DNA of 64,000 nt from contig SHZF01000018.1 in NCBI GenBank assembly GCA_009692425.1, forward strand, positions 1-64,000, given 5' to 3'. Both the position numbers and the translations under genes were made by a program. Shown piece after piece: positions 42,643 through 54,603 of this stretch. Each line of letters begins with the position of its first letter. Within the stretch, counting starts at the first letter, position 1. The notes below the pieces were generated by a model, which had not been told where the DNA came from, made no database searches, and saw only the letters and a program-made list of their open reading frames with translations. The DNA is from Myxococcales bacterium. Lineage in GTDB: Bacteria; Myxococcota_A; UBA9042.

Positions 42643-42930
42643 TCATTCCGTTGATGCAGGTCCGCGCGGCGTCCAGGTCGCGTCGTCGGAAGCCGCGACG
42701 AGCAGGGTGTCGGGCCCGACATTGAGCATGTCGCACAGGCGCATGAGCGTAGGAAAGCTCGGCAAGGACAGGCCTCGTTCGATGCGGGCATAGGCCTCGG
42801 ACGTCACCCCGATGCGCTCGCTGAGTTGGTCCTGCGTCCAGTGCAGGCTCAGGCGGATTGCGCGCAGGCGGCTGCCGAGACGGCGCGCGATGCGGCCTGC
42901 CTCGACGCGGTCCTCGGGGCGGCGGGGCAT
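42643..42930 (-). CDS. XRE-family transcriptional regulator
   Basis: 95 residues from ATG 42930. Helix-turn-helix of the Cro/C1 type (LSLHWTQDQLSERIGVTSEAYARIERG, in which the recognition helix is VTSEAYARIE). Little else, so it is a single DNA-binding domain. Lies 22 bp after the small helical protein and may be the last gene of the CotH/transglutaminase directon, whose regulator it could be. Confidence 0.85.
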   Translation of the reverse strand: MPRRPEDRVEAGRIARRLGSRLRAIRLSLHWTQDQLSERIGVTSEAYARIERGLSLPSFPTLMRLCDMLNVGPDTLLVAASDDATWTPRGPASTE

Positions 42931-42952
42931 GATGCTCCTGACGAAATCACCG

Positions 42953-43189
42953 TCACGTCTTCGGCTTTGCAGCTTGTGCGGCCGGCTGCGGGTGTTTGGG
43001 ATCGCGCCCCACGGCGCCCGCCGCCTTGCCGATCGTGCCGTCAACCGCAGAGTTGAAACGCTTCGACGCGGCTGACTTGGCGCGATGCTCCAGACCCATC
43101 ATCTTGGACTTCGCCTGGATGTGGACCGAATCAATCCGACCCCGCACCAGCCGCATGAAAAAATCAACGATCGCATCGATGAGGCTCAT
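42953..43189 (-). CDS. Small charged protein, unknown function
   Basis: 78 residues from ATG 43189. An amphipathic N-terminus (MSLIDAIVDFFMRLVRGRID) followed by Lys/Arg-rich helix and an Ala/Pro/Lys tail. No signal peptide. Unrecognised family. Sits 32 bp after the pseudo-transglutaminase gene and 22 bp before the XRE regulator gene, on the same strand. Confidence 0.55.
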   Translation of the reverse strand: MSLIDAIVDFFMRLVRGRIDSVHIQAKSKMMGLEHRAKSAASKRFNSAVDGTIGKAAGAVGRDPKHPQPAAQAAKPKT

Positions 43190-43221
43190 GCGGCCATGCT
43201 GCGTCACCAACGGGTCCGGCG

Positions 43222-46200
43222 TCAACGCTCGATGCGCACCGCGTCGGCAGCATCGACTCCGCGCAGCGCGGCGGCGAATGCTGGGTAGTCTGCGGGTGCG
43301 ACGACGGTTGGCTCTGCCGCGATCGTCTTTTCGAAGCGAGCGGTCGCGCCTTCGGTTGTCGCTGTGCACGTGTGGCGCAAGGGTCCTGCAGCGTGTGCGG
43401 CCGGTGCAGCGCGCGTGTGCGGCGGGCGGCCGAGGCTGGTGATGCGGACTTCGACACGCGTGTCGAGCGTATGGGCAAAAAGCAACGGCGTCTTGCGATC
43501 GGCCAACGCGCAATACGCCGGACCGAGCGCATCGGGGTAGAGCGCGAGGTCAAGCGCATCGACACGGCTCGCCGCGGCAGGTGCTGTGATGCGATAGCGC
43601 ACGGCGATCGCCCCATCGGCCTGGCCGAGTTCATCGATGGCGACAAACGCAACGTCGAGGCCCGGAAAACTCGCTCCCGCCAACTCCTGGAGCAACTGGC
43701 GCCGGCCTTGGTCCGTGGCGCCCCGCAGCCAACTGCGCACAAGGGCGGCGAGCGCCCCGCGCAGTTCGTCGCGCGCCTCGCCGTCGATCGCACCGTCCGC
43801 GTGCCAGCGCAACGTGACCGTCACGCGGCGCGGGTCGCGTCCGGCGCCAAGCGCGGGCACTGTCACCAGCGGACTTTGCGCGGCCGCCGCGCACCCAATC
43901 AGCAGTCCCTGCCGGCCGCGCAGTCCGGCGCGCACATGGTTGACGAGCCCGCCTTCGAGGCCCGGGTCGATCCAGAGATCGTCGAACTGCCCCGGCGTCG
44001 CGGTCGACGGGATCTGCAGCCGCACCAGGCTGATGCTCCAGTCGTCTGGGTCGGGCGGGGCCGCCGTCGGCAACCGGGACAGTGGCGCCACGCGCACGAG
44101 GCACCCGTCCGTGTCGGTGTGGCGCGCCAATGCCCACAGAAGTGCCGCGCGGTCCCCCTTCTGGTTGCCGAGTGCCGATTCTGGGCGACCCGGAGCGCCG
44201 CCGTCGTGCTGCTGCTCGACCAGGCGCGCAACCTCACCAGCCACTGCGCCCCACCGCGCCGCGCCGGGAGGCGTCTGCTTCGCCAGCGCGACCAGGCGAT
44301 CGAATTCCGGGTGGCGCACGCCGACTCCGGCCAGCAGCGAGTCTGCCCACGGCTCCATGACGGCCGGCCAACCCGGCGAGAGCGCGACGCGGACCGACGC
44401 CTGCGTCCGCTCGGGTCGGACGGCCCGGGGCTCGACGCGATACCGTGGGGCGTCTTCGCGCCGGAAGACCCATGCGCGCCAGCCGCCCAATTCGCGCACT
44501 TCGGGCGCCGGCGCCGTGGGCGAGGCCTCGAACGCCGGGGTCACGTCGTGCGGCGCCAGTACGACGTATTCCGACAGCCGAATCGGGCCATCCGAGGCCG
44601 CGAACAAGAAAGGCCCGAGCCGCGTCGCGCCAGTCGCCGGGTCATCGGGCGCCACGTACACGACCTGGGCGAATTCGATGGACGTACCGGCGGCGACGGC
44701 GCGCAGCGACACGGTTTCCTTGTCGGCGGTCTCGGCTGGCCAGACGACGGTGCCATCGGGCAGCAACGTGCGCGCGAATTCGAGCACGCCGCCGTCGGCG
44801 ACCCGCACCTCGCCGACGGTTTCGGCCGCCGTGTCGTCGAGTACGCGCAACACCTGGTGTACGCGCCGAATCGCGCCACCTCCCGGCAGCAGTACATCGA
44901 CTTCTTGGTCGAGCACCCACGCCGTCGTCGCGCCCGCGACCTGCGTCGGATCGTCCGGGATGCGGGCCAGCGCCTGACCGTCGCGCGCAAACTCCGCCCA
45001 CGGCGCCGTCGCCCCCGCTTCGAGCGCGCGCTGGCGCATGTCGAGGGAGTGGCCCGGGCCGACGAGGATTTCGCGCAGGCTGGCTGCCAGACGGGCGCCG
45101 TCGCCATCGAATGCGCCGGCCTGCGCGGTCAACCACTGGCGCTGCGTTGCCCAAGCCGGCGATCGGGCGAGCAGTCGCTCGCACGCGGAACCGGCCGGTG
45201 GGTCCCGTGGCGCGTCGGCCTCGGCTTGTGCCGCGGCCCATATGCGACAGTTTGTCACGGAAAGCGACGCCGCGCCAACACCGCCTGTCGTCGTCGCTGC
45301 GGGAGTCGTCTCGACGCCGCTGAGCAGGTGGGCCCGTCGCACGAGACTGGATGTGACGTTGCACGCCGGCGCAGCGCTCGCCAGCAGTCGGCGCACGGCC
45401 GCCCGTTGCAGCGTGTCCGTGGCGTGCTCCAGCGCGCGCCGCCACACGGCACAATCGCCAGGTTGGGCAACGACGGCGGCCTCGAACGCCCGGGTTGCCG
45501 CATCGGTTACCCCTAACGCCGCCAACTGCTCGGCCCGCTCGACCCAGAGATCAGCCCGCCGCGCGAGGCCAACCGGCGGCGCGGCAGGTGCACCGATCTG
45601 GCGCTCGCCGCCGCCCGGGTCGGCGGAATCCACGGCGCGCCGGGAGCCCGAACTTGCCGCCGGCCAGGAAAACGGGTCGCCCCGCAATGGCCCAAGCATG
45701 TCGCGCGCCAGTTCCGGATTGCCGGCGTCGCGCACGCGTGCGGCGCGATCGATGCGGGCATCTACGTGGTCGGGCAACGCGTCGAGCACGCGGTCGAGGT
45801 CGTCGAATTCGGCCTTGCCCGCACTGTCGAGACTGGCCGAGCGCTCGATCTCGACCAAGGCGCGCAGGATGCCGCGCCCGACCGGTACCTGCGCCCTGCT
45901 GGCCCCGAACGCGGCCACGACGTCGCGCAGCACACCTGGCCACGTTGGCGGCAAGGACTCCGCCGCCGGGCCCGGCACGATCGCCACTTCGAGCACATCG
46001 CCGTCCGCAGCCGTCGGCACGAGCAGGTGCAGCGTGTGGGTCCCTCCGGCGAGATCGCCCTGGCCGTCGCAGCGCGGCGAGAGCGGCAGCGTCCCGCAGG
46101 ATGGCGGCGCCCACAGGACACCGTCGAGCCAGGCCCGCACGCCGCGCGGTGCGGCGAGGTGGAGCCAGACAGAGCCGGGCTGAGAAGTCTCGAACGTGAC

Positions 46201-47025
46201 GCGCACGGCGTACAGGCCGGGGCGTTCCACCGCAAGGCCGAATCGCCCGTCACGCACACAACCTGCGCGGAACTCTGGCGCAGCGCAGGCGTCGTCGAGA
46301 TCGACGAGACCTGCCGCATCGCCGAACACCCCGTCGAAGTCCGCGGCCTGCCACTCGGCCACGCCAATGTGCATGCGTGCGCGCACCCGGTCGAGGCGCT
46401 GCGTGACGGTCAAGGGTAGGCCTACCGTGTTTGGCAGGGCGACAGACTGCCCCGCCGTCGCCGCGGCCCACAGGCCGCACGCCGCCGGGAGCGCCAGGCA
46501 GCGTCTCCAACGCCCTTCGGCTGACCCTGCCGTCCACACCTGCGGCGCAAGCTCGGCCCGGGCGGCCAGGGCCCGGTCCACCGCGGCGCGGTCGCGCACG
46601 GCCAGCCGTTCCAGTTGCAGTGCGGCCGCCGTGGCGAGTGCCTCGGCCGGCGCCGGCGCGCCCGGGACGCCGAGACCTACGAGAACCGCGTCGAACCAGG
46701 CGGACGCGCGGGCGCCCACGTCGGCAGTCCCGGCCGCCGCCAACGCCCGCAAGAGCGTGCCGGCGGCCAGATCCTCTCCCGTCGCTTCGGCCCCGCGCGC
46801 GCGCAATTCACCGCACGCACGGCCGTAGAGCAGACAACTCCACGCCAGCGCGTGGGCGCCCGCCGCCCGCGTCGCCGGTGTGGTCCACTGGGCGCGCGCG
46901 TCGGCCTCCAAGCGTCCCGGATCGACACCGGGATCGAACACGCGCAGCGGAGCTCCACATGCGGCAAGTCCCAGGCAGCACAGCCACCACGCGAGACGCT
47001 GGCGGACCGAGGTCTTTCGTTCCAT
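43222..47025 (-). CDS. Large DUF3857-type lipoprotein with inactivated transglutaminase-like domain
   Basis: 1267 residues from ATG 47025, whose signal peptide (RQRLAWWLCCLGLAAC) has a lipobox; a GTG at 47058 overlaps the upstream stop codon as GTGA and is an alternative. Architecture parallels the upstream protein: N-terminal helical part, a beta-sandwich with a lectin/PA14-like feature (RAWLDGVLWAPPS), TPR-like region, DUF3857 domain (about 650-870) and a transglutaminase-like C-terminal part. At the position of the catalytic Cys (GDCKDK in the neighbour) this protein has GNQKGDRAALL (Gln 955); the His is also missing, while the Asp region (LWIDPGLEGG) remains. Hence a catalytically dead paralogue. 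Confidence 0.75.
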   Translation of the reverse strand: MERKTSVRQRLAWWLCCLGLAACGAPLRVFDPGVDPGRLEADARAQWTTPATRAAGAHALAWSCLLYGRACGELRARGAEATGEDLAAGTLLRALAAAGTADVGARASAWFDAVLVGLGVPGAPAPAEALATAAALQLERLAVRDRAAVDRALAARAELAPQVWTAGSAEGRWRRCLALPAACGLWAAATAGQSVALPNTVGLPLTVTQRLDRVRARMHIGVAEWQAADFDGVFGDAAGLVDLDDACAAPEFRAGCVRDGRFGLAVERPGLYAVRVTFETSQPGSVWLHLAAPRGVRAWLDGVLWAPPSCGTLPLSPRCDGQGDLAGGTHTLHLLVPTAADGDVLEVAIVPGPAAESLPPTWPGVLRDVVAAFGASRAQVPVGRGILRALVEIERSASLDSAGKAEFDDLDRVLDALPDHVDARIDRAARVRDAGNPELARDMLGPLRGDPFSWPAASSGSRRAVDSADPGGGERQIGAPAAPPVGLARRADLWVERAEQLAALGVTDAATRAFEAAVVAQPGDCAVWRRALEHATDTLQRAAVRRLLASAAPACNVTSSLVRRAHLLSGVETTPAATTTGGVGAASLSVTNCRIWAAAQAEADAPRDPPAGSACERLLARSPAWATQRQWLTAQAGAFDGDGARLAASLREILVGPGHSLDMRQRALEAGATAPWAEFARDGQALARIPDDPTQVAGATTAWVLDQEVDVLLPGGGAIRRVHQVLRVLDDTAAETVGEVRVADGGVLEFARTLLPDGTVVWPAETADKETVSLRAVAAGTSIEFAQVVYVAPDDPATGATRLGPFLFAASDGPIRLSEYVVLAPHDVTPAFEASPTAPAPEVRELGGWRAWVFRREDAPRYRVEPRAVRPERTQASVRVALSPGWPAVMEPWADSLLAGVGVRHPEFDRLVALAKQTPPGAARWGAVAGEVARLVEQQHDGGAPGRPESALGNQKGDRAALLWALARHTDTDGCLVRVAPLSRLPTAAPPDPDDWSISLVRLQIPSTATPGQFDDLWIDPGLEGGLVNHVRAGLRGRQGLLIGCAAAAQSPLVTVPALGAGRDPRRVTVTLRWHADGAIDGEARDELRGALAALVRSWLRGATDQGRRQLLQELAGASFPGLDVAFVAIDELGQADGAIAVRYRITAPAAASRVDALDLALYPDALGPAYCALADRKTPLLFAHTLDTRVEVRITSLGRPPHTRAAPAAHAAGPLRHTCTATTEGATARFEKTIAAEPTVVAPADYPAFAAALRGVDAADAVRIER

Positions 47026-47054
47026 GCCCTTGCAGGCGGCTGCCGAAACTGCGT

Positions 47055-50000
47055 TCACGGCGCCTCCGGGCAGGCCACGGCCTCGGACCGCAACGCTCCA
47101 TCGACCGCCGCCAGCCACACGCGCAGGTCGCGGTATCCTCCGACGGGCAACTGGCGTTCGCGGAGCTCGAGTGTCGACTCCACGAGGAGGGCGCGCTCCT
47201 CCTCGTCCACGTCGAGTTGAAAATGGCCATGTTCGAATGCCACTTCGGCATCACCTGGCGTGCGCGCCCAGACGTGACCGGCAGGGGGTAGCAGCCGCAA
47301 GCGTGTGTACTCGCGAAAGGCTCGTGCCAGCACGATGTCGTGGCTCCGCACCTCGCGGTTGGCCAACGACTGTACGTACGCCTCCGGTGGCCGCAGCGGC
47401 GCCACGGCGAGCCCGTCCGGTCGCATGATCGCCCAGCCGGGCACGGTCGCGGTGAACTCGATCTCGACGTCATCCTGCGGCGGATCGAGCCCACGCACGC
47501 TGACGCGCTCCGCCTTCAAGCCCGGAAAGCGGGTGGCCCAATGCTGCTCGACACGTTCGAGGCGCTTCTCGGCTGCCACGAAGCGGGCGCGGGCCTCGGC
47601 GGCGGGCGAACCGCGCAATCGTTGCACCACAGTCAAGTGCAGCGTGCCGTCGGCTTGCAAGGCGCCGTCGAGGCGCTCATCGACCAGGTTGTGCGCCGCG
47701 CCAGGCACCGGCAGCCGCACCGGCGCAGTCGCCGCCTCGCGCACCGCCGCATCGTCGGCCACACCCGTCGCCGCCGGCACCGGAATGTGCAGTGCCGTCG
47801 CCCCGGCGTCCGCGTCGGGCAACTCGAGCGGGCCATGGTGTTGGGCGGTCGCGTCGAGGTACCAGCCCAGCGCAGGCACGTGTGCGATCGCGTGGTTGAA
47901 CACGCCGAGCGAAGCCACCTCGTCGTGCAGGCGCCCTTGATCCACTGAACGGACCAGTACGACTTGTGCATCGATGCCGACTTCGCCGAGCAGGGCCACG
48001 ATCAGCGTCGCCTTGTCCTTGCAATCGCCGAAGCGCCGCTGAATGACCTCGCGCACCGCGTGCGGCTTCAGGCTGTGGATGCCGAACTCGAGCCCGACGT
48101 AGCGCACCTGTTGCGCGGCGTAGGCGTACACGGAACGCACCTTCTGCTCGAGCGAGTCGGCCCCGTGGACGAGTCGCGCGGCGAGGTCGCGCACGAGCGG
48201 GTCCTGGCCGCGCACCGGCAGCGCCGCAGCCATCAGGCCCTCGTACCACGTTGCCGCGGCCGCCCACGACGCAAACGAACTGACGTGCAGGTAGGGCAGC
48301 ACGTCGGTGCCCGCCGGCATGCGCTCCTCCGCTTCGATGCCGGCGAGGTCGTACGCGCGCAGCCGCCACTCGTCCCATCCGGCGCCGTCGCCCGCGCGTT
48401 GCACCATCGAAAGCCCGGCCGGCAGTGCGCCGCGCGCGTCGCCCACCGACCAGTGCAGTGCCGTGCCCGTCGGCACCTGCACGACTGCGTCGACCTCCTT
48501 GACGGGATTTTCGTCGCCCAGCGGCAGCAGTTCGCCGAAGACGAGACCGAACGGTGTCGGGCCGTTGTCGCGCACCACCCATTCTGCCACGACCGTGTCC
48601 CCGGGGCGCAGGTTCTTGAAGCGCAAGGTGATGCGCTCGAGATCGAAATACATCCCGCCCGCGTCGTCTCCGAGTCGGTCGGTCTCTTGGGCGGTGGAAC
48701 GATCGGTGCGGCCATCGGCCCGGATGACCACCGCCTGCAACACGTCGCAGTGACTCAGCGATGGCGCGTATTCGATTTCGAGGGCGTGAACTGGCGGGCC
48801 GTCCTTGCCGATGGCGATCACTTCGGCGTCGTACCGTGCCTGCTGGCCGTTGCCGACGACGCGCAGCACGGTCTGGCGCAAGCGCACTTCCAGAGGGTGC
48901 CGGCGCGCCGCCTTTGCCTCGCGGCGGGCCAGACCTGCCAGGTCGCGTCGAAGCGGTGCAAAAAAGTCGTCGCCCGGCTTCAGCAATTGGCGCCGCGCAC
49001 GCAGGTCGGCACGGGCCGGCGCGAGCGCGATCGCGGCATCGAGCCATGCCAGGGCGTCGGCCGTCTGGCCCCGTGCGAGAGCCAGTCGCGCGCGCAGGTC
49101 GAGATCGAGGGTGCGTGCAGGCGCATCGACGGCGCTGGCGTCGCGGGCCAGCGCCGCGGCCGCCGCGGCAGGCTGGTCGTCGGCGAGCAGGCCGAATGCC
49201 AACGTGCGGAACGGGCGCGCTCGCACACCAAAGAGGGTCGCCTCCGCGGCAGCCAGCCCGGCAGCGCGATCGAGGTCGCCCCGGTCGAGCGCGGTCTGCA
49301 GCACGGCATCATGGCGCGCGACCACGCCTGGTTCTTGTTCGACAAGGCTGCGCTGTAGCTCATCGACTTCGGCGAGCCTGTCGCGCGCCTGACGGTTGCG
49401 CACGGCGGCGTCGAACAGGTCGGGAGCGAGCGGCCAGCGCGCCACGCAGCGGTCGAGCGCGCGCGTCGCCAGGCGGTCGGCACCCAGGCGGGCCCACAGC
49501 GCAGCGCGCAGGGCACACGCGCGGGCAGACTGCTCTTCGAGCGGCGGGTGCGACGGCCGGTGCCACACGGACCAGAGTCGGTGGGCCTCGGGCGCCTTGC
49601 CGAGTTCGTCGAGCACATTCGCTTCGGCGAGGTGCAGGCCGATGGCATCGGGCAGGCGGTCGCTCCATGTGCGCAGGCGGTCCAAGCGGTCGCCGGATTC
49701 GTCGGGAAGCATCGCATGGGCCAGCGCGGCCCGGGCGTCGCGCGGCAGCCCACGCGGGTCGGCCACGACCACCCGCGCGAGAAGCGGTGCCGGCAGGGGC
49801 CAGCCGTGCCATGCCAGCGCCACCAGGCCGGCGAGCGTGGCAGGCGAAGGCCGCGCCCGGTCGGGCCAGTGAAGTCCTGCACACGCATCTTCGACCGCTC
49901 GCGCCGCTGCCGGGGTCGCCGTGTCTGGCAGCGCCACCCGAGCCGGGGCGTCGGGCAGATGCTCGGCGCGCGCGCGAATCGGCGCCGGCAAGCCGTCGCG

Positions 50001-50942
50001 GCCGAACGCGCGTGCTGCCAGGCGAATGCGGCCGGCCGTCGGACTCAGCTTGATCAGCAAGCGGTGCCAGCCGGCCGATAGGTCTACTGGAATCTCGTGT
50101 ACTTCTGGCAGATCCGGTACGCTCCGCGCCATGCCGTTGCGCGCCTGCAAGACGGGGAGCGCTGCGACCAGACGCCCGTCGAGCCACAGTCGCGCCGCAC
50201 TGTCCGTGCCGACCCGCAGCAAGTGCGCTCCGGGTCGAACCGCCGCCAACCAGACCTGCGCGTACAGCAGCGCATCGTCGGGTCGATCGACCAGTTCATC
50301 GAGTTGTACGCGGCCACCGGGCAGGATGCGTTCGGGCTGCAGCGTGCGCCACACCACCTGGCCTTCGCGGCCGGGCCAGGCCGCACGCATCGGGTTGCCG
50401 ACAACCGCTACCTCGGCCTCGACGGCGCCGGAGCGGTCGAGCGCCGACCCGTGCTCGTCGCCAAAGGGACCTAGCCAAGCCCAGGTGCGCACCGACCCCG
50501 TTGGGTCGTCGAACGCGCCGATAGCGGCAGTGTCTCCGGCGCGCCTGGCGGCCTCGACGAGCCATGCCCGCAGCACGCGTCCGGCCGGCGACCACGCCGA
50601 CGCGGGCCGCGCCAACCATGCTGCGGCGGGGGTACGCAAGGCGTGGACGAGATGGGCGGGAGGGACGGAGCCGAACAGGCGGCCGATTTCGAGCACGTCG
50701 ACGAGCGCGGCGGCGCCCGTCGTCCCCGACAGGCCGCGGGCCAGTTCATCGAGGCGCGCGCGGTCCGCATCGACGTGACCAGCAACCTGAGATTGTGGGG
50801 GCGGCGTGGCCCGGGAGCGGCCCACTGCGGGCGCCGCATCGGCGAGCAGGACGCCGGCGCACGCCAAGACTGCAGCGCCAAACGCTGGGCCCGGTCGTGC
50901 CACCCGCGCTCCACTGTGTAGCGTGCCGCGCGCAACCTTCAC
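47055..50942 (-). CDS. DUF3857/transglutaminase-like secreted protein
   Basis: 1295 residues from the GTG at 50942, overlapping the cotH stop (GTGA). Signal peptide (AFGAAVLACAGVLLADAAPA), lectin-like sandwich (RLWLDGRLVAALP), TPR-rich middle, DUF3857 (about 650-850), and a papain-like transglutaminase core with the catalytic Cys 974 in RRFGDCKDKATLIVALLGE, His in VFNHAIAHVPALGW and Asp in YLDATAQ. The triad is complete, so it may crosslink or cleave amide bonds outside the cytoplasm. Second gene of the cotH operon. A role in cross-linking surface or spore-coat proteins is inferred by analogy. Confidence 0.85.
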   Translation of the reverse strand: MKVARGTLHSGARVARPGPAFGAAVLACAGVLLADAAPAVGRSRATPPPQSQVAGHVDADRARLDELARGLSGTTGAAALVDVLEIGRLFGSVPPAHLVHALRTPAAAWLARPASAWSPAGRVLRAWLVEAARRAGDTAAIGAFDDPTGSVRTWAWLGPFGDEHGSALDRSGAVEAEVAVVGNPMRAAWPGREGQVVWRTLQPERILPGGRVQLDELVDRPDDALLYAQVWLAAVRPGAHLLRVGTDSAARLWLDGRLVAALPVLQARNGMARSVPDLPEVHEIPVDLSAGWHRLLIKLSPTAGRIRLAARAFGRDGLPAPIRARAEHLPDAPARVALPDTATPAAARAVEDACAGLHWPDRARPSPATLAGLVALAWHGWPLPAPLLARVVVADPRGLPRDARAALAHAMLPDESGDRLDRLRTWSDRLPDAIGLHLAEANVLDELGKAPEAHRLWSVWHRPSHPPLEEQSARACALRAALWARLGADRLATRALDRCVARWPLAPDLFDAAVRNRQARDRLAEVDELQRSLVEQEPGVVARHDAVLQTALDRGDLDRAAGLAAAEATLFGVRARPFRTLAFGLLADDQPAAAAAALARDASAVDAPARTLDLDLRARLALARGQTADALAWLDAAIALAPARADLRARRQLLKPGDDFFAPLRRDLAGLARREAKAARRHPLEVRLRQTVLRVVGNGQQARYDAEVIAIGKDGPPVHALEIEYAPSLSHCDVLQAVVIRADGRTDRSTAQETDRLGDDAGGMYFDLERITLRFKNLRPGDTVVAEWVVRDNGPTPFGLVFGELLPLGDENPVKEVDAVVQVPTGTALHWSVGDARGALPAGLSMVQRAGDGAGWDEWRLRAYDLAGIEAEERMPAGTDVLPYLHVSSFASWAAAATWYEGLMAAALPVRGQDPLVRDLAARLVHGADSLEQKVRSVYAYAAQQVRYVGLEFGIHSLKPHAVREVIQRRFGDCKDKATLIVALLGEVGIDAQVVLVRSVDQGRLHDEVASLGVFNHAIAHVPALGWYLDATAQHHGPLELPDADAGATALHIPVPAATGVADDAAVREAATAPVRLPVPGAAHNLVDERLDGALQADGTLHLTVVQRLRGSPAAEARARFVAAEKRLERVEQHWATRFPGLKAERVSVRGLDPPQDDVEIEFTATVPGWAIMRPDGLAVAPLRPPEAYVQSLANREVRSHDIVLARAFREYTRLRLLPPAGHVWARTPGDAEVAFEHGHFQLDVDEEERALLVESTLELRERQLPVGGYRDLRVWLAAVDGALRSEAVACPEAP

Positions 50943-52720
50943 GGCCCGCCCGCGGACTGCTGCACGAATGCGCGGCGCGCTTTCGCGAACGCCCGGATTT
51001 CTTCGACACGTTCCAGGTATTCGGCGTTCGTCGCGCGCTTGCGCGTATCGGCCAGCAGATCGAGCCGCACCCGGCAAACCGCCCACGCCAGGCGCGCGTC
51101 GAGCCAGCCCGTGCCGTAGGCGCCGCCAGCGATGCCCTGGGCGTACGTTGCGAATGCTTGCTTCCACTTGGGCACCGACAGGGCACGCCACAGCCGATTC
51201 GTCAGCGCCGGCACCAGCTTTTCGTTCCCCGTCCACAGGGACAGGTCTGTGACGATGGCCTCGGACAGCGTGTCGTCCGTCTCGGTCCACAGGTGGCCCA
51301 GCGTCAGTTCGAGGTCCCAGGGCAACATCTCGAAGCGTGGGTCGCTCCCCACCGGATCGCGGTACAGGTAGTAGTTCTTGCGCAGGTGGTCCGTCGACTG
51401 CAGCACCGCGATGGCCGCCGCATACGTGAGGAAATCGTGCACCTTGACCGCGCCATCGAGCGCATTGGCCAGGGCCGCGTCCGGTAGCGTCAGCGTCTGC
51501 TCGATCAGGGCCCGCAGGTCGGCATTGTCGCCCGCCGCGCCCGCGTGTTTTGTGTACGCCACCGCATACAGGCTCGGATCTACCAGCGGCGTCAGGTTCG
51601 CTCCGCTCGGCAGCGGGGCGGTGCTGGGCGGGTCGGCCTCGTAGAGGTTGCCGTCCGGGTTGCGGCCGTGCAGCTCGAGGAAGTCGCCACCGATGCGCTG
51701 GACCTCGTGCATCAGCCCGTAAAACTCGCCGTTCCAGCGCAAGTGAACGAAGTCGGACTGCGGCGCAGGCAGCCAGGTAAAGCTGCGGAACAACTGAAGG
51801 CTCAACCAATTCCGCAGCATCGTCTTGTCGTTCCACTCCGCTCGCAAGACCAGCTTGCGCCTGCCGTCCGCGAGCTTGTCGCCTTTCTTCAAGTCGATCC
51901 GCAGCGACTTCTTCGGGTAGCCCTTCGACGTGCCACCGTGGATGCGGATCTGGGCGCCCGTGAACTTCTTGGCGCCGACCTCGAGCGTGCAGGGGTAGAA
52001 CGTCTTGGCGCTCGATGTGTGCAGCGCGGCGAAGGCATCTGCTGTCGTCGTCAGGCGCCAGACCGCGAGCGGCGTAGCATAGGCGAGGTGCTGGGCCGTG
52101 GCGCTGCGGCCGTCGGGCCACTGTACCGTCAGGGTGCGCAGGCCGGGCTGGGCAAACCGAACCTTGGCGACGAAGCTCCCCGGCTCAGCGCCACTGCCCA
52201 CCGAGACGATCTGCGTCGCCGCATCCGCCTTGAGGGTCGGTACAGGAGCCGCAGGATCGGTCACGGTCGAGCCCTTCTGGAGCGCGCGGATTGCAACGAC
52301 CTCGTCTTCGCCCACCGCGCGCAACGGCCGGAACGGCTCGAACGCGGCGTCGCCCGTCGGTGTGGCGGGCAATGGCGGCAGGAAGGCACCGGCTTCCGGT
52401 ACGCAGGCGGGCTCGAGCGCTGGCGGAATGGACGGGAATGGGCGAACCGCATCCCAGCCGGTGTCGCCGGCGGGCCCAAGACCCAGGTCGAGCGGCACAT
52501 CGATCGCGGGGCCATCGGGAGCGGTCGCGGTCGAGTCGGTGTCCGGCGGGGGCACCAACCATGCCGCAACGTCTGGGGCATCCTGCGCGGCATCGACCGA
52601 CGTCACGCTTGGCTCGCCCGTGCACGCCGCACTCGCGCAAACGAGCAGGGCAACCAGGGGGCGCTGGAAAAGCCGGGCGAGCCGACCGGACACCGCTACG
52701 GGGCAGGTGGAGACGCGCAT
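50939..52720 (-). CDS. CotH-family secreted kinase-like lipoprotein
   Basis: 593 residues from ATG 52720. The signal peptide ends in a lipobox (LVCASAAC), an Asp/Pro-rich linker follows, then the CotH-type kinase fold: QIRIHGGTSKGYPKKSLRID, NWLSLQLFR, FVHLRWNGEFYGLM, HLRKNYYLYRD, and LPWDLELTLGH with the metal-binding Asp. CotH proteins are atypical kinases that phosphorylate spore-coat and other extracellular proteins in Bacillus. First gene of the directon. Its stop overlaps the transglutaminase start by 4 bp, suggesting coupled translation. Confidence 0.85.
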   Translation of the reverse strand: MRVSTCPVAVSGRLARLFQRPLVALLVCASAACTGEPSVTSVDAAQDAPDVAAWLVPPPDTDSTATAPDGPAIDVPLDLGLGPAGDTGWDAVRPFPSIPPALEPACVPEAGAFLPPLPATPTGDAAFEPFRPLRAVGEDEVVAIRALQKGSTVTDPAAPVPTLKADAATQIVSVGSGAEPGSFVAKVRFAQPGLRTLTVQWPDGRSATAQHLAYATPLAVWRLTTTADAFAALHTSSAKTFYPCTLEVGAKKFTGAQIRIHGGTSKGYPKKSLRIDLKKGDKLADGRRKLVLRAEWNDKTMLRNWLSLQLFRSFTWLPAPQSDFVHLRWNGEFYGLMHEVQRIGGDFLELHGRNPDGNLYEADPPSTAPLPSGANLTPLVDPSLYAVAYTKHAGAAGDNADLRALIEQTLTLPDAALANALDGAVKVHDFLTYAAAIAVLQSTDHLRKNYYLYRDPVGSDPRFEMLPWDLELTLGHLWTETDDTLSEAIVTDLSLWTGNEKLVPALTNRLWRALSVPKWKQAFATYAQGIAGGAYGTGWLDARLAWAVCRVRLDLLADTRKRATNAEYLERVEEIRAFAKARRAFVQQSAGGP

Positions 52721-53042: not shown

Positions 53043-53648
53043 ATGCTGTCGAATCCCCAAGCCCCGACCCGTCGAGGTGTCCGGCGGACGCGCGCGGTGT
53101 GTGTCCTGCTGCTCGTCGCCAGCGGGGTGGCATGCAAGCGCGAAGAGCCCGCCGTCGACCCGCAGCCCGCGCTGGCCGAAGCGGTCGCGCCGCCCACGCC
53201 ACTCGCGACCGACCCGTCGCGGAGTGCGGTGCCGGCCGGCTTGCAGGTGCCGTCCACCGTGCTGGGGAGCCTGCCGCCTGGCCACCCGCCGGTCGGCGCC
53301 GGCAACCCGCACCCCGCCGTCCCCGCCGCCAATGACGTCACGATCGGGACGGTCGCGCCGGCCGACCTCGCCATCGCCGACCTGCGGGCCCACCGGGCAG
53401 CCAATGCGGGTGCAGTCGTCGCGGTGCGCGGCCGGGTGTGGAAGGTGAGCCGGGGCATCCTCGGTCGCAACTGGCTGCACTTGCGCGACAACGACGGCGG
53501 CGAAGACCTCGTCGTCACGTCGCTCCAAGACGCGCAGCCTGGCCAGGTCGTGTTGGCCAATGGCAAAGTTGCCGTCGACCGCGACCTCGGGATGGGCTAC
53601 CAGTACGACGTGTTGCTCGAAGACGCGACGCTGGTGGTCGAGCCGTGA
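53043..53648 (+). CDS. OB-fold lipoprotein
   Basis: 201 residues from ATG 53043. Lipobox VASGVAC, Pro-rich linker, then a compact beta domain whose pattern (VVAVRGRVWKVSRGILGRNW, LHLRDNDGGEDLVV, GQVVLANGKVAVDRDLGMGY) is that of OB-fold domains found in other bacterial lipoproteins. No catalytic residues known. 19 bp before gshB; probably co-transcribed with it. Confidence 0.7.
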   Translation: MLSNPQAPTRRGVRRTRAVCVLLLVASGVACKREEPAVDPQPALAEAVAPPTPLATDPSRSAVPAGLQVPSTVLGSLPPGHPPVGAGNPHPAVPAANDVTIGTVAPADLAIADLRAHRAANAGAVVAVRGRVWKVSRGILGRNWLHLRDNDGGEDLVVTSLQDAQPGQVVLANGKVAVDRDLGMGYQYDVLLEDATLVVEP

Positions 53649-53667
53649 ACCCGGTGGCAGGCAAGTC

Positions 53668-54603
53668 ATGACCCAGCACCTTTTCGTCGCCGACCCGCCC
53701 GAGCGCTACCAGGTGGCGAAGGACTCGACGTTCGCGCTCATGCTTGCCGCCCAACAGCGTGGTCACGGCGTGTGGTGGTGCGACACCGACGGATTGAGCG
53801 CCGATTCGGGCGCGGCGCGGGCGCGATGTCGACCGATCCGTGTGCAGAGAGTGCAAGGCGACCACGCGACATTCGGTGAGGTGGCCGTGCGCGACCTGAC
53901 CGATTTCGATGCCGTGTGGATGCGCAAGGACCCGCCGTTCGACCTCGACTACATCGCCGCGACCTACGTGCTCGACCTCGCGCCCGACCGCGTCTGGTCA
54001 CGGCCCGAGTCGCTGCGCTCATGGAACGAGAAGACCAGCCTGCTGCGATTTCCCGATCTTGCCCCACCGACCCTGTTGGCGCGCGACATGGCGACGATCC
54101 GCGCGTTCCAGGCGGCAGTCGGCGGGTCGATCGTGCTCAAGCCGCTGCAATTCTCGGGCGGTGCGGGCATCGTCGCGCTGCACCCTGGCGACCTGAACAC
54201 GCGCTCCTTGCTCGAGATGTCGACCCACGAGGGGCGCCGCTTCGTCGTCGCCCAACAGTACCTGCCCGCTGTGGTCGAGGGCGACAAGCGCGTGATCTTC
54301 GTCGATGGCGTGGCGCGCGCCGGGTTGCTGCGGATCCCGCCTCCAGACGACCTGCGCGGCAACATCCACATCGGCGCCCGGGTCGAGTTGGCACCCTTGA
54401 CCGCAGCCGAACGTGTCCTGTGTGAACGGCTCGGCCCCAGTTTGCGCGCCGCCGGCCACCTGTTCGTCGGCATCGACCTGATCGGCGCTCGCCTGACCGA
54501 GATCAACGTGACGAGCCCGACGGGAATTCAGGAAATCCGCGACCTCGGTGGACCAGACCTTGCCGAGGAACTGATCGACGCGGCGCTGGCCCGACTCGGG
54601 TAG
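53668..54603 (+). CDS. gshB: Glutathione synthetase
   Basis: 311 residues, normal GshB length. ATP-grasp motifs: VWMRKDPPFDLDY, WNEKTSL, IVLKPLQFSGGAGI, VVAQQYLPAVVEGDKRV, and the metal-binding LTEINVTSPTGIQE. Joins gamma-glutamylcysteine and glycine. No gshA is seen in the window. The ATG at 53668 is the standard start. Confidence 0.94.
   Translation: MTQHLFVADPPERYQVAKDSTFALMLAAQQRGHGVWWCDTDGLSADSGAARARCRPIRVQRVQGDHATFGEVAVRDLTDFDAVWMRKDPPFDLDYIAATYVLDLAPDRVWSRPESLRSWNEKTSLLRFPDLAPPTLLARDMATIRAFQAAVGGSIVLKPLQFSGGAGIVALHPGDLNTRSLLEMSTHEGRRFVVAQQYLPAVVEGDKRVIFVDGVARAGLLRIPPPDDLRGNIHIGARVELAPLTAAERVLCERLGPSLRAAGHLFVGIDLIGARLTEINVTSPTGIQEIRDLGGPDLAEELIDAALARLG

Follow-up and report, generated by a model that had tools for sequence, protein, structure and literature searches.

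A predicted transglutaminase-fold enzyme and its paralogue without active site are kept together across Myxococcota and joined by a CotH-type gene in one family

The rlo operon of Pseudomonas encodes RloB, an inactive transglutaminase of the envelope that is fused to seven transmembrane helices and has an aspartic protease and an ATP-grasp protein as partners (PMC12239564). In polymorphic toxins, exported transglutaminase domains that have lost triad residues form the N-terminal anchor of Rhs-repeat toxins and are proposed to bind peptides at the cell surface (PMC3482391). CotH of Bacillus (structure 5jd9) is inactivated by the substitution D228Q (PMC7821199). A DUF3857 structure, 3kd4, is that of BDI_1141 from Parabacteroides distasonis and is labelled 'putative protease'. 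We analysed a window of 64,000 nucleotides (positions 1 to 64,000 of contig SHZF01000018.1, Myxococcales bacterium, assembly GCA_009692425.1), in which a gene of CotH type precedes those of two large exported proteins: TG1, a predicted cysteine enzyme with a DUF3857 and a transglutaminase core, and TG2, its lipoprotein paralogue devoid of the active site. The TG1–TG2 pair is kept together across Myxococcota and into Acidobacteriota metagenome-assembled genomes (MAGs), and this core is older and wider than its association with CotH. We found no literature on the pair: full-text searches gave no paper linking DUF3857 with transglutaminases, and the sole mention of DUF3857 in the literature searched was in a paper on lolA of Xanthomonas.

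TG2 is comparable to RloB as an envelope pseudo-transglutaminase sharing an operon with an exported partner, in RloB's case a protease to which it is functionally tied (PMC12239564). Unlike RloB, TG2 is a lipoprotein that combines tetratricopeptide repeats (TPRs) with DUF3857 and is paired with its own predicted active paralogue. No RloB-like fusion to seven transmembrane helices was found in TG2: it has no Pfam match of this kind, its N-terminus is that of a lipoprotein and its modelled fold is soluble throughout. With the inactive domains of polymorphic toxins (PMC3482391) it shares export and the loss of triad residues; in contrast to them, it carries no Rhs or toxin domain.

The window belongs to a 70.6-kb contig of a 4.9 Mb assembly in 137 contigs, from a little-studied family of Myxococcota that we code f1. 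The core of the locus reads as follows.

50939..52720, minus strand: CotH-type lipoprotein with putative kinase activity, 593 residues (PF08757, alignment with 5jd9, orthologue alignment)
47055..50942, minus strand: TG1, secreted protein with PA14-like, TPR, DUF3857 and transglutaminase-core parts, 1295 residues, GTG start at 50942 (Pfam, alignment, AlphaFold, Foldseek)
43222..47025, minus strand: TG2, lipoprotein pseudo-transglutaminase paralogue, 1267 residues, ATG start at 47025 (hhalign, AlphaFold, Foldseek)
50939..50942, minus strand: GTGA stop/start overlap of CotH and TG1 (sequence and orthologous junctions)

The CotH/TG1 overlap, pointed out in the earlier note together with a possible one at TG2, is indeed present and is consistent with translational coupling; an alternative GTG start of TG2 at 47058 would give a protein of 1278 residues and a second GTGA overlap. 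Start codons and export signals were assigned by pattern only. The reading frames of the locus are not chance ones, because long homologous frames occur in 20 of the 22 genomes of the order.

This order-level sample consists entirely of f1 genomes. TG1 is found in 20 of the 22 and TG2 likewise in 20, and the two are adjacent wherever the contig permits. Searching 84,980 species genomes with the alignment of TG1 yielded 570 relatives, and we retrieved the 80 that scored best. These 80 include Nannocystis, Enhygromyxa, Plesiocystis, Sandaracinus, Anaeromyxobacter and Myxococcus, besides numerous MAGs of Myxococcota and several 'Acidobacteria' MAGs. The latter assignment follows record titles only, and five such MAGs agree. 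A pair confined to f1 is thus rejected, relatives of both TG1 and TG2 being spread over Myxococcota and Acidobacteriota MAGs. Among loci whose contig extends 2.5 kb or more past TG1, a TG2 relative is the next gene on the same strand at 62 of 68 (11/11 in f1, 51/57 elsewhere), a proportion drawn from best-scoring loci, mostly in MAGs, that may be lower in remoter relatives. The TG1/TG2 junction is commonly a 4-base overlap. Loci without such adjacency are for the most part Myxococcaceae-like. The Myxococcus genome that was tested has its TG2 on another contig, also without the Cys; a loss of TG2 from Myxococcus was therefore discarded, the gene being present elsewhere in the genome.

In a joint tree, TG1 and TG2 separate into reciprocal clades (support 100/100) whose inner branching matches, the pattern expected if a single old duplication was followed by inheritance of both copies together. 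Of 237 genomes sampled throughout Myxococcota, 117 match the TG2 profile at E below 1e-30, a count of the pair family and not of TG2 alone, as the profile also detects TG1. Two of the loci come from records whose titles look wrong: L095 (CAMDBH010000104.1, titled Klebsiella pneumoniae) and L159 (BNCN01000002.1, titled Comamonas sp.) hold clearly myxobacterial versions.

TG1 matches DUF3857 (PF12969, 52.0 bits) and Transglut_core (PF01841, 36.3 bits), both over the Pfam cut-offs; the scan gave no other transglutaminase family above cut-off, including the Bacillus Tgl type. The Cys-His-Asp set first noticed in the window sequence holds up: the triad Cys974-His1017-Asp1030 is intact and invariant among 58 aligned TG1 sequences. 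The AlphaFold model of residues 96-1295 has a mean predicted local distance difference test (pLDDT) score of 89.6, and its best Foldseek match is 3kd4 (E 1.9e-26). The transglutaminase fold is common to proteases, amidases and transglutaminases. On sequence and model, TG1 is best read as a soluble envelope cysteine enzyme, for whose predicted activity both cleavage and cross-linking are compatible with the fold.

By plain BLAST, TG1 and TG2 meet at an E value of 0.035, and their paralogy becomes visible by profiles only: hhalign aligns their entire C-terminal halves, along 586 columns, with a probability of 100 and an E value of 4.9e-63. In Pfam, the DUF3857 of TG2 is sub-threshold (20.2 bits, cut-off 24.6) and Transglut_core gives no match. 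The model of residues 68-1267 has a mean pLDDT of 86.2 and a single Foldseek match below 0.001, again 3kd4 (E 2.8e-19). AlphaFold, Foldseek and profile searches thus agree on a transglutaminase-type fold for the C-terminal half of TG2, a fold whose absence would, according to the earlier note, have refuted its reading.

The active site of TG2 is gone. Where TG1 reads FGDCKDKATLI, the profile alignment gives KG---DRAALL for TG2, with Asp-Cys-Lys deleted. The earlier note had rightly called TG2 a pseudoenzyme, a true paralogue missing both Cys and His, and had supposed the Cys to be replaced by Gln955; this substitution is rejected in favour of the three-residue deletion, Gln955 itself not being conserved. 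The former site is occupied by Gly-x-Arg (G957 and R959); across larger alignments this Gly never varies and the Arg hardly does. In the window TG2 the catalytic His is lost and the Asp (D1020) retained, as it is in f1 and some other groups. The catalytic Cys motif is present in none of about 60 TG2 relatives examined. One group among them (L114, L130 and L146), the only one with the His, keeps it without the Cys and is possibly an intermediate stage of decay. Since the Cys is missing from every TG2 examined and the His survives in one group, the Cys was probably lost first, ahead of the lineage split and of the diversification of Myxococcota.

The two proteins also differ in their export signals. 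TG1 carries a signal peptide, with a lipobox in at most 4 of 69 TG1 sequences by pattern scans; TG2 has the lipobox GLAAC in the window, and about 46 of 54 TG2 overall have one (two pattern scans combined). TG1 is therefore taken as a soluble enzyme and TG2, the dead paralogue, as anchored, both most likely at the periplasmic or outer face of the envelope, as judged from their N-termini.

Both models contain a TPR superhelix; resemblances to PA14 and to the N-domain of M1 aminopeptidases are weak (E between 0.001 and 0.02). Profile searches agree with Foldseek on 3kd4 as the top relative of TG1 and TG2. It shares with them DUF3857, the transglutaminase-type fold and the C-terminal domain; unlike them, it has about 500 residues, has no TPR or PA14-like half and comes from another phylum. 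In alignments 3kd4 has no Cys motif (AYGTPLEIA against FGDCKDKA), and by this alignment, rather than by coordinates, it may itself be a pseudoenzyme.

The CotH protein of the window matches PF08757 with an E value of 5.4e-41 (141.6 bits, cut-off 23.8), has the lipobox ASAAC and aligns with 5jd9 at an E value of 1.2e-13. Its residues D444 and D469 align with the catalytic-site Asp pair of the Bacillus protein, D228 and the Asp of a WD motif 23 residues on, D228 being identified by spacing in the 5jd9 sequence. It thus resembles Bacillus CotH (PMC7821199) in a kinase fold recognized by sequence and in two catalytic-site Asp positions. Unlike it, the window protein is a lipoprotein, differs in its N-terminal domain and comes from a Gram-negative lineage, and no coat substrates or sporulation context were found for it.

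Orthologues of this CotH form a group at 297-460 bits, distinct from many weaker paralogues. Conserved co-occurrence of CotH with DUF3857–transglutaminase genes in related genomes, the lack of which the earlier note had named as refuting its reading, was found. An orthologue stands directly upstream of TG1 on the same strand in G000, G008, G012, G013, G015 and G017. In G020 and G021 a single gene intervenes, and G018, with a 1.5-kb space, fits this latter pattern. In G009, G011 and G019 it is present, and contig ends or another position leave its placement undecided. It is absent from G001-G007, G010 and G016, that is from at least 9 of the 22 f1 genomes, all of which retain TG1, TG2 or both, and outside f1 none was seen next to the pair at the loci examined. 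An essential place for CotH in the unit is therefore not supported; the gene is an addition of one family. A chance neighbour is an unlikely description of it all the same, since the same orthologue group, and not other paralogues, precedes TG1 in three genera. One genus, g10 (G019, G020 and G021), shows a marked expansion, with five to nine CotH-like genes per genome; between CotH and TG1 it has a protein of 460-480 residues (L079:1952-3400, L081:5145-6548, L088:659-2068), the tested copy of which is without Pfam match.

Two further genes lie beyond TG2, which makes five on the minus strand, at the positions first described.

42953..43189, minus strand: 78-residue protein (tblastn homologue in G001)
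42643..42930, minus strand: XRE-family HTH protein, 95 residues (Pfam HTH_3)

The five had been taken for one unit. This operon is rejected, the XRE and 78-residue genes not being conserved beside TG2. The XRE gene has no homologue at related loci. The small protein has a 50% identical homologue in another genus (G001; tblastn E 1e-18; L071:3827-4048, minus strand), at another position and on the opposite strand relative to the window arrangement, and is thus a real protein and not a conserved member of the unit.

On the other side, a region with gshB (glutathione synthetase, PF02951/PF02955) occupies 53097-54603 of the window on the plus strand, divergent to CotH or TG1; a small lipoprotein-like gene (53097-53648) often accompanies gshB. 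The divergent arrangement recurs in many f1 genomes (loci L071, L078, L082, L083, L084, L088), including some without CotH. In G001 and G002 gshB is immediately beside TG1, in G010 one small gene away, and in the window it lies beyond CotH. As gshB borders TG1 where CotH is missing, these are the same locus and CotH is its variable element. In genus g4, without CotH at the locus, several genomes (L066, L068, L069) encode a 69-residue PAAR-motif protein just upstream of TG1, behind a PEGA-domain protein.

From the pairing, the mirror-image trees, the retention or loss of the triad, the folds and the export signals, all computed directly, we infer with about an even chance of being right an ancient two-gene envelope system: the cysteine enzyme TG1, the membrane-anchored pseudoenzyme TG2 that would dock it or present its substrate, and, as an accessory, the CotH kinase. 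TG2 would be a lipid-anchored duplicate of TG1 that lost its Cys early and was then retained as a binding protein. By physical contact, it would anchor the Sec-exported TG1 at the outer membrane, and its TPRs and dead active-site groove would hold or present a shared peptide or protein substrate. TG1 would carry out Cys-dependent cleavage or acyl transfer; in f1, CotH probably phosphorylates the same envelope substrate or either TG1 or TG2.

Several points weigh against this proposal. TG1 and TG2 are unlinked in Myxococcus, so that co-translation is not essential. Outside f1 the flanks have no common functional theme, with UbiA, a sigma factor, anthranilate synthase and radical SAM genes differing by lineage. 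Glu takes the place of D444 in five of 12 CotH orthologues, and kinase activity may vary among them. Finally, TG1 and TG2, both bearing TPRs in the same architecture, may have different substrates in one process.

Carried further, the docking proposal would make TG1–TG2 an undescribed two-component envelope machine of Myxococcota, in which a cysteine enzyme depends on a lipid-anchored pseudoenzyme derived from its own duplicate, and which the family-specific, secretory-type CotH gates by phosphorylating TG2 or the substrate; this extension we put forward tentatively. Clearly less probable to us than docking is a reading in which TG2, as a decoy or inhibitor, restrains TG1, a processing protease or amidase, until a signal, in f1 the phosphorylation by CotH, releases it. 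The operon coupling of an active and a dead paralogue conserved together, the substrate-groove fold kept in TG2 and the presence of CotH in some lineages all suit it. However, docking, presentation and inhibition by TG2 are indistinguishable from sequence, and the difference in anchoring fits a receptor at least equally well.

It is unlikely that the genes are neighbours by descent only, TG2 having an unrelated structural job such as binding peptides or glycans at the outer membrane and CotH being a chance neighbour kept by synteny. The separate TG2 of Myxococcus, the weak PA14-like carbohydrate-binding match in TG2 and the variable flanking genes speak for such a view; adjacency and the frequent 4-base overlap over two phyla are hard to explain without a shared function. 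Least probable of all is a kinase and cross-linker along the lines of the earlier note, modelled on the spore coat of Bacillus. Here TG1 would cross-link proteins of the surface or of spores, with TG2 serving as scaffold or structural substrate and CotH phosphorylating them: the CotH-TG1-TG2 order of several genera in one family and the TG1 triad would fit, but CotH is missing at all loci examined outside f1 and in many f1 genomes, the nearest structure is labelled a protease, TG1 matches no other transglutaminase family in Pfam, no sporulation context was found near TG1, a transglutaminase fold does not imply cross-linking, and the spore-coat analogy has no source other than the CotH name.

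To our knowledge, enzyme/pseudoenzyme pairs kept together for so long are rare in bacteria. The apparent lack of a catalytic Cys in 3kd4 questions the 'putative protease' label of one solved DUF3857 structure. About half of the Myxococcota genomes sampled carry the pair family and, as both genes occur in a Myxococcus genome, its function is testable in a standard laboratory organism. Altogether, TG1 and TG2 lend themselves to a clean study of why evolution keeps a dead paralogue.

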